The notes under the pieces were generated by a model that saw nothing but the letters and a program-made list of their open reading frames with translations, was not told where the DNA came from and searched no databases. 39,936 nucleotides of DNA from Candidatus Nomurabacteria bacterium (GTDB taxonomy: Bacteria > Patescibacteriota > Minisyncoccia > Phycocordibacterales > UBA9973), in NCBI GenBank assembly GCA_943359485.1, contig CALRHR010000008.1:1-39936 (forward strand). Reading direction: 5' to 3'. Of this stretch, positions 12,600 to 37,602 are shown piece after piece; position 1 is the first letter of the stretch, and the number at the start of each line of letters is the position of its first letter. Made by a program: the position numbers and the translations under genes.

Positions 12600-12631
12600 T
12601 TTGTAAATTTTGCATATGCGTAAATTACTCA
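12600..12631. promoter_or_regulatory. Outer palindrome of regulator 1, next to the rpoBC promoter
   Basis: A 32-bp imperfect palindrome centred on GCATATGC (12612-12619), with right arm TTACTCA (12625-12631) and a degenerate left arm TTTGTAA (12600-12606). It matches the promoter palindrome at 13258-13289 in inverted orientation: 17 consecutive bases (GTAAATTTTGCATATGC) are identical when both are read towards the gene. It lies 13 nt after the regulator's stop codon and 34 nt upstream of the rpoBC -35 box. Confidence 0.7.
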
Positions 12632-12644
12632 CTTTTAATATGAG

Positions 12645-13253
12645 CTAACTTAATTCTACTCCAAAATACCTCCTTATCTTCACATCTCGTAAAATATTCT
12701 CTACTGTTAGTACTTCCACAAACTTTCCTACTCCGAAGAAATTAGTAATGAATATTATTTCATCTTCACATGGATAGGGATAAATCCAAGCAGATTTTTG
12801 AAACTGAAAGAAATTTAGTTCTTTTAGATGGTACCTTAGAGCTTCCCTGCCTTTAGTAAATCTCATAGGAATATCGAACATTACCAACCTCCATTTCCCG
12901 TCCCATTTCTTAGGCTTTTTGATTTTCATGAGTTCGATATCAAAAGCCCTCAGCCTTGTCTCTCCTTTTTGGGTGATTTTTACTATTGTCTTTCCTTCTT
13001 TTTCGGTTACATATTCGATGAGGTTTTGATTACGAAGGTAAGCGATCGAATCAACTACTTGTTTTTTACTAAAACGCTTCGCGGTTTTGAATTGTCGAAA
13101 GACCTGCACAGCATTTCCCATGGAAGCTGCTATCAACATAAGAGCTGGAGTGGATGCAATAGCAAGCACACACAGAGCCACTTTTACTGCTTTTGCCTTT
13201 GATGTATCAGAATCCAAGAACTCTCGCAACCGTTCAGAATATTTTTTGTCCAT
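12645..13253 (-). CDS. PaaX/Cas2-fold transcriptional regulator 1
   Basis: A 202-residue protein. After a basic N-terminus and a hydrophobic helix (about 22-47) comes a winged helix-turn-helix (KRFSKKQVVDSIAYLRNQNLIEY, then a wing KTIVKITQKGE). A C-terminal Cas2-like ferredoxin domain follows, with KWRLVMFDIP, basic residues, and FFQFQKSAWIYPYPCE. PaaX-type proteins are dimeric repressors with this layout; members in Patescibacteria are often labelled Cas2 although no cas1 or array is nearby. The Asp of the FDIP motif, equivalent to the Cas2 catalytic Asp, is retained. The gene is bracketed by two related palindromes, one over its own promoter, so autoregulation is likely. Paralogs occur at 28929-29483 and 37062-37550. 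Confidence 0.82.
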   Translation of the reverse strand: MDKKYSERLREFLDSDTSKAKAVKVALCVLAIASTPALMLIAASMGNAVQVFRQFKTAKRFSKKQVVDSIAYLRNQNLIEYVTEKEGKTIVKITQKGETRLRAFDIELMKIKKPKKWDGKWRLVMFDIPMRFTKGREALRYHLKELNFFQFQKSAWIYPYPCEDEIIFITNFFGVGKFVEVLTVENILRDVKIRRYFGVELS

Positions 13254-13257
13254 ATAA

Positions 13258-13289
13258 TGAGTAATTCTAGCATATGCAAAATTTACTCA
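13258..13289 (-). promoter_or_regulatory. Promoter and operator of regulator 1
   Basis: A 32-bp palindrome with arms TGAGTAA (13258-13264) and TTACTCA (13283-13289), symmetric about GCATATGC (13270-13277). Read on the minus strand, TTGTGA, a 17-nt spacer and TAGAAT form a promoter almost entirely within the palindrome. The TAGAAT box ends 10 nt before the ATG, so the transcript would have almost no leader. A bound dimer would block this promoter. Confidence 0.75.
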
Positions 13290-14079: not shown

Positions 14080-14162
14080 ATATCTTTTTTTGTTTTGTTT
14101 TTCCATTCCTCTATTTTTTTATGATTTCCGGAAAGTAAAACTTTCGGTACTTTGTAATTTTT
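14076..14162 (-). pseudogene. Remnant of a second trmD 3' end
   Basis: Translating this stretch on the minus strand gives KNYKVPKVLLSGNHKKIEEW followed by Lys-rich codons and a stop. It aligns with the C-terminus of the intact TrmD encoded at 15021-15671 (KNYKVPKVLLSGNHKLINEW), but it differs in sequence and is closer to the general TrmD consensus at IEEW. It has no start and overlaps the stop codon of the lycopene-cyclase-domain gene. I infer that an incoming trmD plus membrane-protein segment replaced most of a resident trmD and left this tail. Confidence 0.75.
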
Positions 14163-15018
14163 ATTCCGTATAAAAATATTTACGCAACTCGCTTTTATGT
14201 ATTGGTTCCCCACTTTTTATTTCCAAATCAATAAATATCTTATAATACGCAAGCATAATAGGTGTCCCAAGTAATATCCAAAAAACCAACTCTTCAACGG
14301 GAAAAACTTGATTAAAAAGTTTTACATGCCCTATGTACTGACCAGGGAATCTCCATTGATCTAAATATAATGCTGTGAGTTCAAAGCTCAAATATAAAAA
14401 TAAATTAAAAACACTGGCTTGTAGTAAATGTTTTACTAAAGAAGGTTTAATAAAAATAAGATAAAAGAACGGCAGAGATCCAAAAAGACCTATAAAGAAA
14501 TACGCATAGGGAAATAAAAGAAGGTGTGGATTAATATAAAAAATACTAATAAGTAAAACTATAACTCCTGAAAAAAATACAATAAAGTATTTGAATAAAG
14601 GAGAGACTTTATCAGGCCTTTCAACTTCAAAAAAATGCTCGTAAAAGATAATAGAAAAGAGCACCCAAAAAAAATACCAAATAAGAACATCAATAGGAAT
14701 AAGCCCAAAAATTTTATTAATAAATATGAGCTGTCCAGTCGGCGCCCAAGACCATGCTCCATTAATTTCTGCTAAAAAATCCACAATAAAAAGCAACATC
14801 ATCGCACCACACAAAGCAGCTATTAATTTTTTAGGTTGAATTGGTTTTCTAATAAATAAATAAACGGCTGGCACTCCAAAAAACAACAAAGTAGAAGTAA
14901 AATACCTAACATGAAAAAATAAAACAGTCGGAATACAAATAATAGCCATCAGTAAAACACAAAGAAAGTCTTGTCTTAATGCTTGATTACGAAAAATTCT
15001 TATTATTTCTTGTATCAT
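14161..15018 (-). CDS. Lycopene-cyclase-domain (CarR-like) integral membrane protein
   Basis: A 285-residue protein with about eight predicted membrane helices. Two tandem halves each show the carotenoid-cyclase pattern. The first is EINGAWSWAPTGQLIFINKI, then GLIPIDVLIWYFFW and FYEHFFE. The second is ELTALYLDQWRFPGQYIG, then QVFPVEELVFWILLGTPIML. Heterodimeric lycopene cyclases and related enzymes use the conserved Trp and acidic PxEE residues. PVEE is intact in the second half, while the first has PIDV, so activity as a cyclase is uncertain. No other carotenoid gene is in the window. The gene starts 2 nt after trmD and ends against a trmD remnant, a sign of insertion. Confidence 0.75.
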   Translation of the reverse strand: MIQEIIRIFRNQALRQDFLCVLLMAIICIPTVLFFHVRYFTSTLLFFGVPAVYLFIRKPIQPKKLIAALCGAMMLLFIVDFLAEINGAWSWAPTGQLIFINKIFGLIPIDVLIWYFFWVLFSIIFYEHFFEVERPDKVSPLFKYFIVFFSGVIVLLISIFYINPHLLLFPYAYFFIGLFGSLPFFYLIFIKPSLVKHLLQASVFNLFLYLSFELTALYLDQWRFPGQYIGHVKLFNQVFPVEELVFWILLGTPIMLAYYKIFIDLEIKSGEPIHKSELRKYFYTE

Positions 15019-28283: not shown

Positions 28284-28847
28284 TTATCTATTTTCTTTTT
28301 TAAGAATCTCCAGGAGATTTTTCATTGCCCGGCCACGATGAGAAGAATCGTAATATTCCGATGGGTGATATTCCAACATCACTTTATCCATACCATCCAG
28401 CTTTACAAATAATTCAAATTCTCTGCCTTTATGATCATTGTCCTTAGGAGGAACTATTACCCCCTCAAATGTGCCTTCAACTATAACAATATCTTCCGGG
28501 CCACGACATAGACCCAAGCGACACGTCGCGCTGATGCGTGAGCCGGCAAACTTGTGACCCATTTCATAAGGAGTAAAACATTTCCAAAAATCTTTTTGAT
28601 AAGGTCCTGGAAAGCCATTTAATGCTTCCATGTTTACTGAAACATCATCTACCAAAACTGGATGTTTATAAATTTCATATGCTCTTTGAAGCTTATACTT
28701 AATTATTTCATCTGGATTGCCCTGAATTTCAGGATCATTCCAAGGTTTTTTTTCACAATCAAAAAATTCGCCGAGTTTTAAAGACAAATCTCCAAATTTA
28801 AACTTACTTCCAGTAACAATATAAAGCTTTGGTCTCATTTGAATCAT
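28284..28847 (-). CDS. HAM1/RdgB-like nucleoside triphosphate pyrophosphatase
   Basis: About 187 residues from the ATG at 28847; the ATG at 28838 (MRPKLYIVTGSKFKFGDL) is also plausible. HAM1/ITPase motifs: IVTGSKFKF, PDEIIKYKLQRAYE, LVDDVSVNMEALNGFPGPYQKDFW, ATCRLGLCRGP, and the terminal YDSSHRGRAMKNLLEIL. These enzymes cleave non-canonical NTPs such as ITP and XTP to the monophosphates. Loop residues differ from typical RdgB (DDVSV for EDSGL), so specificity may differ. A copy of the regulator 2 palindrome lies just upstream, which suggests control by that regulator. It is convergent with the MFS gene. Confidence 0.85.
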   Translation of the reverse strand: MIQMRPKLYIVTGSKFKFGDLSLKLGEFFDCEKKPWNDPEIQGNPDEIIKYKLQRAYEIYKHPVLVDDVSVNMEALNGFPGPYQKDFWKCFTPYEMGHKFAGSRISATCRLGLCRGPEDIVIVEGTFEGVIVPPKDNDHKGREFELFVKLDGMDKVMLEYHPSEYYDSSHRGRAMKNLLEILKKENR

Positions 28848-28892
28848 TTTACAGCAGACTAGGTAAATATACAATTAGTTAATTTTAAAACG

Positions 28893-28925
28893 TATACTAT
28901 GTTGACGGCCGTTAGTATAGTATAT
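28893..28925. promoter_or_regulatory. Outer palindrome of regulator 2, upstream of the HAM1-like gene
   Basis: TATACTA (28893-28899) and TAGTATA (28913-28919) in inverted repeat around a core with ACGGCCGT. The last 19 bases (TGACGGCCGTTAGTATAGT) are identical to the promoter copy at 29492-29520, with the same arm spacing and the same orientation. It lies 9 nt after the stop of regulator 2. Read on the minus strand it retains a TATACT/17 nt/TATACG promoter-like geometry leading into the HAM1-like gene. Confidence 0.75.
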
Positions 28926-28928
28926 AAA

Positions 28929-29483
28929 CTATGTTAATTTCTTTAAAGTACCTATTTTACTAATTTCAAAAATTTCGACATATTCAAGAATCTTTAAGTT
29001 TTCCAGATCATTAATAAAATCTTTTGGGATTTTTAACTTCCCCATCCACACACTCTGATGGATCATTTTAAATTTAAGATTCTTAATCACTTCTCTGAGC
29101 CAGTTACGTTTCCTACGGAGCTTCTCAGGAATATCAAAACTTATTATGATTTGACTTTTTTGACCTGGAATTTCTTCGTAGTGTCTATCTGGTAAAGTAT
29201 TTCTCAAAGAATCTAATTTGTTTTTACCTTTACTTGAAATGGTAACAACATTTTTATTTTCTATTATCAAACCATCTTGCCTCATTTTTGATATATAGGT
29301 TCTCAATCGCTCTTCCCTATCCCTACAAACTTTTCTTTCTCTTTGCCGTTTATTATATTCATAGTCAATCTTACTCATGCCGGCACCATAGCCTGCTACT
29401 AGAACTGCGGAGAAAAAGTCGGCTTGACTTATAGTACCCTCGTAAAGTATTTCTAATGCCTTTAATAGAATTTTTCCTTTCAT
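28929..29483 (-). CDS. PaaX/Cas2-fold transcriptional regulator 2
   Basis: 184 residues. An N-terminal winged helix region (MKGKILLKALEILYEG, then RLRTYISKMRQDGLIIENKNVVTISSKGK) with a basic stretch about 45-60 (NKRQRERKVCRDREER) precedes a Cas2-like ferredoxin domain: IIISFDIPEKLRRKRNWLRE, IHQSVWMGKLKIPKDFINDL, VEIFEISKIG. The Asp of FDIP is kept. A TATAAT box lies exactly 6 nt before the ATG, inside a palindrome that is repeated after the stop codon, next to the HAM1-like gene. I infer an autoregulated repressor of both genes. Upstream is gyrB on the same strand. Confidence 0.82.
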   Translation of the reverse strand: MKGKILLKALEILYEGTISQADFFSAVLVAGYGAGMSKIDYEYNKRQRERKVCRDREERLRTYISKMRQDGLIIENKNVVTISSKGKNKLDSLRNTLPDRHYEEIPGQKSQIIISFDIPEKLRRKRNWLREVIKNLKFKMIHQSVWMGKLKIPKDFINDLENLKILEYVEIFEISKIGTLKKLT

Positions 29484-29489
29484 GACATG

Positions 29490-29520
29490 ATTATACTACA
29501 CTGACGGCCGTTAGTATAGT
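29490..29520 (-). promoter_or_regulatory. Promoter and operator of regulator 2
   Basis: Arms TATACTA (29492-29498) and TAGTATA (29512-29518) around a core containing ACGGCCGT. On the minus strand TATACT, 17 nt and TATAAT (29490-29495) form the promoter; the -10 ends 6 nt before the ATG at 29483. The palindrome covers the spacer and both boxes. Confidence 0.75.
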
Positions 29521-29570
29521 AAATACTATTAATTAATCTCTTTCCTTTCTATAAAGAAAAACACCAACCA

Positions 29571-31661
<2,091 letters not shown>

Positions 31662-37013: not shown

Positions 37014-37046
37014 GTTACAAACTCTGCGATAGCAGAAAATCTAACA
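37013..37046. promoter_or_regulatory. Outer palindrome of regulator 3
   Basis: TGTTAC (37013-37018), core CTGCGATAGCAG (37024-37035), CTAACA (37041-37046). It matches the promoter copy (37569-37602) in inverted orientation, including the asymmetric GATA centre. It lies 15 nt after the stop codon of regulator 3. Confidence 0.75.
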
Positions 37047-37061
37047 AATTCATAACTTCTT

Positions 37062-37550
37062 TTATTTGTTATTTTTAAAATCATATCCTCGCGCAAGTTT
37101 AAAAGTCTTTAGGCTATCTCTGAGTTCGATGCTTTTAATATAATCCAAAAATTCTTTCGGTAAAGGTGATGGCCCAACCCAAACACTCTTTTGTATCATA
37201 AGATAATTAAACTTCTTTAGATGCCATCGCAACCATTCCCTTTCAGCTTTTCTGGACTCTGACACATCAAACATTACTATTAAATTTTTTGGCGCATTTT
37301 TATTGAACTTAAAATTAAATTGTTTTAATGAATCAATTTTCTTACTGATATATTTTTTTCCTTTTAAAGTAACACATAATGAGCCATAATCTTCTATAAA
37401 TCCTTCTTTTACTAAAGAAGACATGGTTGCCCGCAACGAATTGGGTGAATATTTTTTAAATTTCGGTAAACCTAAAAGATTTACTCTCATACCTTTATAA
37501 TTGATGGATGTTTCACTCAATTCTTTTAAAATATCAAATATAATACTCAT
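37062..37550 (-). CDS. PaaX/Cas2-fold transcriptional regulator 3
   Basis: 162 residues. N-terminal winged helix (MSIIFDILKELSETS, then SPNSLRATMSSLVKEGFIEDYGSLCVTLKGKKY) and a C-terminal Cas2-like domain: LIVMFDVSESRKAEREWLRWHLKKFNYLMIQKSVWVGPSPLP, FLDYIKSIELRDSLKTFKLARGYDF. The Asp of the FD motif is kept. Shortest of the three paralogs in the window. The TATACT -10 (37557-37562, TGG-extended) ends 6 nt before the ATG, and two copies of a matching palindrome bracket the gene. Upstream is a helicase-nuclease gene, downstream a small membrane protein gene. Confidence 0.82.
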   Translation of the reverse strand: MSIIFDILKELSETSINYKGMRVNLLGLPKFKKYSPNSLRATMSSLVKEGFIEDYGSLCVTLKGKKYISKKIDSLKQFNFKFNKNAPKNLIVMFDVSESRKAEREWLRWHLKKFNYLMIQKSVWVGPSPLPKEFLDYIKSIELRDSLKTFKLARGYDFKNNK

Positions 37551-37568: not shown

Positions 37569-37602
37569 TGTTAGGAACTCTGCTATCGCAGAAAGTCTAA
37601 CA
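37569..37602. promoter_or_regulatory. Promoter-side palindrome of regulator 3
   Basis: TGTTAG (37569-37574), core CTGCTATCGCAG (37580-37591), CTAACA (37597-37602); the arms and core share one symmetry axis. It lies 18 nt upstream of the ATG and over the -35 region, the position of a repressor operator. Confidence 0.75.

Follow-up and report, generated by a model that had tools for sequence, protein, structure and literature searches.

The window analysed here, a stretch of 39,936 nt of a Candidatus Nomurabacteria genome, encodes gyrB, a DNA-binding protein termed regulator 2 and a HAM1/ITPase-like protein in that order on the reverse strand, as well as two further members of the regulator 2 family (see table). 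The reading frame of the HAM1-like gene is open from position 28874, and its start was placed at 28838 by homology. Regulator 2 is enclosed by two matching sites: TATACTAnnnTGACGGCCGTTAGTATAGTA is present at exactly two positions (28893-28922 and 29492-29521), and 100 shuffles gave no match with up to three mismatches. The earlier note on this DNA correctly described two such sites with equally spaced arms, here TATACTA; the identical stretch comprises 20 nt (TGACGGCCGTTAGTATAGTA) instead of the nineteen it counted. Both sites are imperfect palindromes centred on ACGGCCGT and are spaced about 600 bp apart. The upstream palindrome precedes the start of regulator 2 (29483) and overlaps a -10-like TATAAT (29490-29495), with which the transcript is probably leaderless or has a very short leader. 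The downstream palindrome precedes the likely ATG of the HAM1-like gene (28838) by about 55 nt; its constant feature in relatives is the position after the stop codon of the regulator. Pattern searches of the whole genome (713 kb, 20 contigs) revealed only one further related palindrome pair, around a paralogue on contig C1, with no other copy of comparable quality and no solo copy of the regulator 2 palindrome.

Table. Features of the window, ordered by position, with strand and basis of assignment
Feature	Position	Strand	Basis or remark
Downstream palindrome of regulator 1	12600..12631	.	
Regulator 1, same family as regulator 2	12645..13253	-	Own palindrome, core GCATATGC
Upstream palindrome of regulator 1	13258..13289	.	
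HAM1/ITPase-like gene	28284..28838	-	Pfam Ham1p_like E=1e-21; gyrB-HAM1 adjacency without regulator
Downstream palindrome of regulator 2 (bracket 2)	28893..28924	.	4 nt past the regulator 2 stop (28929)
Regulator 2, winged-helix and Cas2-like (PaaX_M) DNA-binding protein, 184 aa	28929..29483	-	Pfam, AlphaFold, fold search
-10-like TATAAT of regulator 2	29490..29495	-	Read directly
Upstream palindrome of regulator 2 (bracket 1), probable autoregulatory operator	29492..29523	.	Sequence matches; overlaps -10-like TATAAT
gyrB, ancestral HAM1 neighbour	29571..31661	-	Stop TAATG resembles the gyrB-HAM1 overlap of G141
Downstream palindrome of regulator 3	37015..37044	.	
Regulator 3, same family as regulator 2	37062..37550	-	Own palindrome, core TGCNATNGCA
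Upstream palindrome of regulator 3	37571..37600	.	

Regulator 2 matches PaaX_M in Pfam with E=3e-10 (PF20803, 40.5 bits against a cut-off of 24), and its AlphaFold model (mean pLDDT 80) combines a winged helix-turn-helix (wHTH) with a ferredoxin-like domain. The earlier note was right about a Cas2-like domain in regulator 2. A fold search gave weak matches (best E 0.036), including Cas2 proteins, Rv0674 and PaaX of E. coli W, and a sequence search of the PDB returned no useful relative. A related locus in Candidatus Nomurabacteria carries a regulator 62% identical to regulator 2. The winged-helix N-terminus and the PaaX_M Cas2-like domain are shared with PaaX repressors (e.g. E. coli PaaX, PDB 8a39), and PaaX-like repression via a palindrome would be expected of the family. 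In contrast to PaaX, however, the regulators have half to two thirds of the length, occur in multiple copies and are bracketed on both sides. Pfam detected no PaaX_C domain, and the full-length PaaX model TIGR02277 gave no match to regulator 2 and 19 and 12 bits for regulators 1 and 3 (cut-off 264). No phenylacetate genes were found near the regulator, whose neighbours are gyrB, HAM1, MFS, thrS or nrdB. With CRISPR-Cas Cas2, the regulators have in common the ferredoxin-like domain, an invariant aspartate and an S-x-W (SVF-like) signature. The strand 1 aspartate, D117, is invariant across 30 relatives, as are R126, S144, W146 and G148, and the fold is supported by the model and the weak fold matches. 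Unlike CRISPR Cas2, the regulators are fused to a wHTH and have specific palindromes; with no Cas1 match in any of the 17 genomes checked, we rejected a CRISPR Cas2 identity. The open-access literature contained nothing on point for PaaX/Cas2-like regulators with palindromes in Patescibacteria. Judging from the sequence, regulator 2 very likely binds the palindrome at its own promoter.

The enclosure of the gene by its own palindromes is a property of the family. Bracketing was scored blind by comparing the two flanks of each gene, upstream and downstream, for their best 30-nt match, with a threshold of 23/30. In the family and class samples, the latter with one genome per species, 103 of 128 PaaX_M/Cas2-like genes were bracketed, compared with 27 of 749 other ORFs at the same loci; outside the class, the values were 11/21 and 0/31, respectively. 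All three family genes of the window are bracketed, each by its own palindrome pair. The palindromes match within one gene and differ between genes, with cores such as ACGGCCGT, ACGATCGT, GCTATAGC, GCTCGAGC and ACATATGT, and their half-sites are conserved, C and G occupying fixed inner positions. The genes were preselected for matching copies when pairing was compared within genomes; in 66 of 67 cases, the upstream copy found its best partner in the gene's own downstream copy, and the similarity of the palindromes followed that of the proteins (Mantel r=0.42, 0/1000 permutations). Regulator paralogues within one genome are at most about 75% identical, a divergence too large for recent transposition of the cassette, which we rejected. 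The rule applies to the majority of genes in a large, unstudied family of Patescibacteria and names a site on both sides of each. It thereby provides predicted binding sites for proteins often labelled merely PaaX-like or Cas2-like, and a natural set of more than 100 protein-site pairs for learning recognition.

The HAM1-like protein matches human ITPA and belongs to the same Ham1p_like fold family as ITPA and RdgB, from which it is distinguished by the location of its gene beside gyrB and by its loop. The unusual loop residues mentioned in the earlier note are real: HAM1 relatives usually have the motif [YW]DP, which is replaced by F-[ED]-[LF] in the subfamily formed by the window's protein (28284-28838) and those of L133-L144. 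The catalytic K, E, D and SHR positions of the active site are retained in the gyrB-linked members. A weak sequence match was found to KomB of the Kongming defence system; its partners KomA and KomC are not encoded nearby, the flanking ORFs being MFS, regulator 2 and gyrB. In the family sample, HAM1 orthologues follow gyrB directly or at a distance of one to three genes, typically without regulator or palindrome. The gyrB stop and the HAM1 start overlap as TAATG in G141 and are separated by 3-30 nt in others; the gyrB of the window likewise ends in TAATG, ahead of the regulator cassette. A regulator between the two genes was found only in the window's genome (G000), G101 and G089, where the cassette looks to have been inserted. 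Elsewhere the regulator lies near gyrB and thrS without HAM1 (G075, G092, G094, G116, G138) or beside nrdB in other relatives. Both palindromes accompany it in the absence of HAM1, including loci at which a convergent gene follows and a promoter would not be expected, which argues that the downstream palindrome did not originate as a HAM1 operator. The most plausible interpretation of the two sites is that they bracket regulator 2.

These observations bear on the proposal of the earlier note, a two-gene unit of regulator 2 and HAM1 with a common operator, serving nucleotide-pool cleaning or defence. The position of the palindrome relative to HAM1 in the window and the adjacency in G000, G101 and G089 would be consistent with such a unit, but this adjacency amounts to 3 of 80 genus genomes, and HAM1 is tied to gyrB, with neither regulator nor palindrome in most genomes. 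Joint presence was mildly enriched (four genomes versus 1.25 expected, P=0.019); in one of the four the genes are not adjacent. We reject the functional unit, which we consider very unlikely, together with the shared operator, as palindromes follow the regulator without HAM1 and HAM1 sits behind gyrB without a palindrome; regulator 2 may conceivably also act on HAM1 from the downstream site. The pattern can be explained without invoking nucleotide-pool control or a defence module; the link to HAM1 is probably positional, and HAM1 is probably not part of the unit.

The location of palindromes behind stop codons could also point to an RNA hairpin acting as an intrinsic terminator or 3' stabiliser. 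The complementarity of the arms was 0.760 within a site and 0.775 when arms of different sites in a genome were paired (p=0.15 in a permutation over arm and outer positions); a match no higher within than between sites fits protein half-sites, not an RNA hairpin. T-runs behind downstream palindromes were not enriched (23/103 versus 136/749 in controls), and one copy overlaps promoters. Following the half-site and T-run tests, the hairpin was rejected as extremely improbable. Hexamers resembling a -10 box accompany 79 of 103 upstream and 56 of 103 downstream copies, and an extended -10 was found behind 33 and 17 of them, respectively. The greater frequency of -10 motifs behind upstream copies, together with the overlap with TATAAT in regulator 2, makes it likely that regulator 2 represses its own gene.

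Palindromes of this type also occur without a regulator gene between them. In the genus, 33 solo ACGGCCGT-type sites were classified, of which 19 lie between convergent genes against a background of 95 in 655 ORF pairs (P=4e-8), the strand classes carrying some error because genes were called by the longest-ORF rule. Almost all of these sites are located 2-60 nt past a stop codon; solo sites of the regulator 3 type are less clearly at 3' ends. Copies are few (0-7 per genome), and solo sites were found in 7 of 10 genomes with a close regulator compared with 6 of 70 without (P=5e-5); G082, G145 and G100 possess them in the absence of a close regulator. Two junctions occur both with and without the unit. 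Without a palindrome, mazG and dfrA overlap by 4 nt or are separated by 0-11 nt in most relatives, whereas in G101, G089, G075 and G090 they are 40-50 nt apart and the gap is filled just by the palindrome. Similarly, the 36-bp unit makes up the whole of the trmH|fpg junction in G145, G101 and G083, and the junction is 1-16 nt long or overlapping in G110, G146, G088, G082 and G117. The contrast between filled and near-empty junctions indicates that whole units were copied into them and prompts one to ask which agent copies a palindrome of 36 bp to such places.

A plain autoregulator, with two operators looping the DNA across the gene and solo sites as ordinary regulon sites, would be a simpler option than those discussed below. 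A DNA loop joining the two copies would likewise account for their pairing: their spacing, the overlap of upstream copies with promoter-like motifs and the bracketing of TrpR-like and ArsR-like genes (see below) are all compatible with it. We nevertheless regard this explanation as unlikely, as no promoter is available for control at solo sites located between convergent stop codons.

The solo units invite comparison with REP and REPIN elements, which accompany RAYT transposases. In both cases, a gene is flanked by cognate palindromes, solo palindromes occur at gene 3' ends, and low activity is combined with long-term inheritance; extragenic solo palindromes inserted as units, as in REP-RAYT systems, are seen here at mazG|dfrA and trmH|fpg. 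The palindrome might be a small mobile element that is copied to the 3' ends of genes and has the bracketed gene as its partner or carrier; the copying could be performed by the Cas2-fold protein or by Y1 transposases of the same genomes. The occupied and empty states of both junctions, the palindrome of another regulator at trmH|fpg in G109 and G093, the Y1 transposase genes in 15 of 17 genomes checked and the bracketing of one RAYT-like gene by palindromes are in line with this possibility. However, the regulators are Cas2-fold wHTH proteins rather than Y1 (HUH) transposases, without a Y1/HUH match in Pfam (no Y1_Tnp in the bracketed gene product P0002), the copies are few, and each genome holds many gene-specific palindromes. 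Moreover, different species have the same junctions occupied, the divergence of paralogues gives no sign of recent transposition, and G083 and G090, both incomplete, contain solo copies but no Y1 match. Overall, we consider REP-like copying possible, if on the improbable side, and the main rival to the mechanism proposed below. A narrower version, in which many small wHTH-Cas2-like genes of Patescibacteria would each be bracketed by a private 36-bp palindrome and the protein itself would help to copy the units into 3' ends as a Cas2-fold counterpart of REP-RAYT, appears quite improbable; it would recall the handling of similar-sized DNA pieces by Cas1-Cas2. REP-like copying and a role in blocking transcription can both be true, as a role of REP elements in transcription termination has been reported (PMC8049555).

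We tentatively favour, at somewhat short of an even chance, a DNA-binding protein that represses its own gene and, through its site at the 3' ends of genes, blocks transcription in a lineage without detectable Rho. Based on the arrangement of the sites, we propose the following hypothetical scheme, in which (i) palindrome, DNA-binding gene and palindrome would form a self-contained cassette; (ii) the protein, with its winged helix and Cas2-like dimerisation domain, would form a symmetric oligomer on its own 36-bp palindrome, each paralogue using its own palindrome sequence; (iii) protein bound upstream would cover the promoter and repress its own gene; (iv) protein bound behind the stop codon or at convergent solo copies would act as a roadblock for RNA polymerase, insulating the neighbouring genes. 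According to this scheme, HAM1 would belong with gyrB and lie behind the cassette by chance. Binding, autorepression and roadblock are inferred from sequence. The roadblock is preferred for two reasons: there is no promoter for solo sites to control, and no Rho was found over the model cut-off in G000 and 20 relatives (21 genomes). Weaker matches to the Rho model in these genomes look like paired ATPase subunits. Several findings count against the roadblock, namely the solo sites of G082, G145 and G100, the copies upstream of genes in G011, the less clear 3'-end location of regulator 3-type solo sites and the lack of a solo regulator 2 palindrome in the window's genome. In addition, a whole 36-bp unit at a junction needs a copying mechanism, which the roadblock model does not supply. 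A roadblock of this kind would offer a testable explanation for the separation of convergent genes in tiny genomes that have no detectable Rho.

Other repeats were observed at the same or comparable positions. The bracketed control ORFs included some informative hits, namely TrpR-like, ArsR-like and one RAYT-like gene. The TrpR-like gene is enclosed by CTTAAnnTATCATATATGATA palindromes (L086:7201-7590, L133:7021-7419, L135:5127-5525), and its palindrome occupies trmH|fpg as a solo copy in G109 and G093 (junctions L308 and L311). The same junction is filled by another palindromic repeat, GCAATCTATCTGGCGAAG|CTTCGCCAGCGAACTGCT, in L302, L305, L306, L309, L313 and L314, from several species. Near-identical repeats TCTAATTCGCGCGAATAGACGAATAG bracket the ArsR-like regulator (L075:4211-4513, contig C1 of the window's genome), and near-perfect GTAGACGTC..GACGTCTAC palindromes the RAYT-like Y1 transposase gene (L109:6994-7692). 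G011 of genus g7 (L095-L100) contains seven near-identical perfect copies of TACAATTCTGACGGCCGTCAGAATTGTA, several of them upstream of genes; the one close regulator relative found there has a palindrome other than TACAATTCTGACGGCCGTCAGAATTGTA. In L184, L224 and L237, a YraN-like gene and the regulator alternate with three palindromes, one on either side of each gene. Short repeats of the AAAGTTATAAAGTTGTAAAGTT type flank several unrelated genes, among them that at 14161-15018 of the window and others in L086, L087, L112 and L118.
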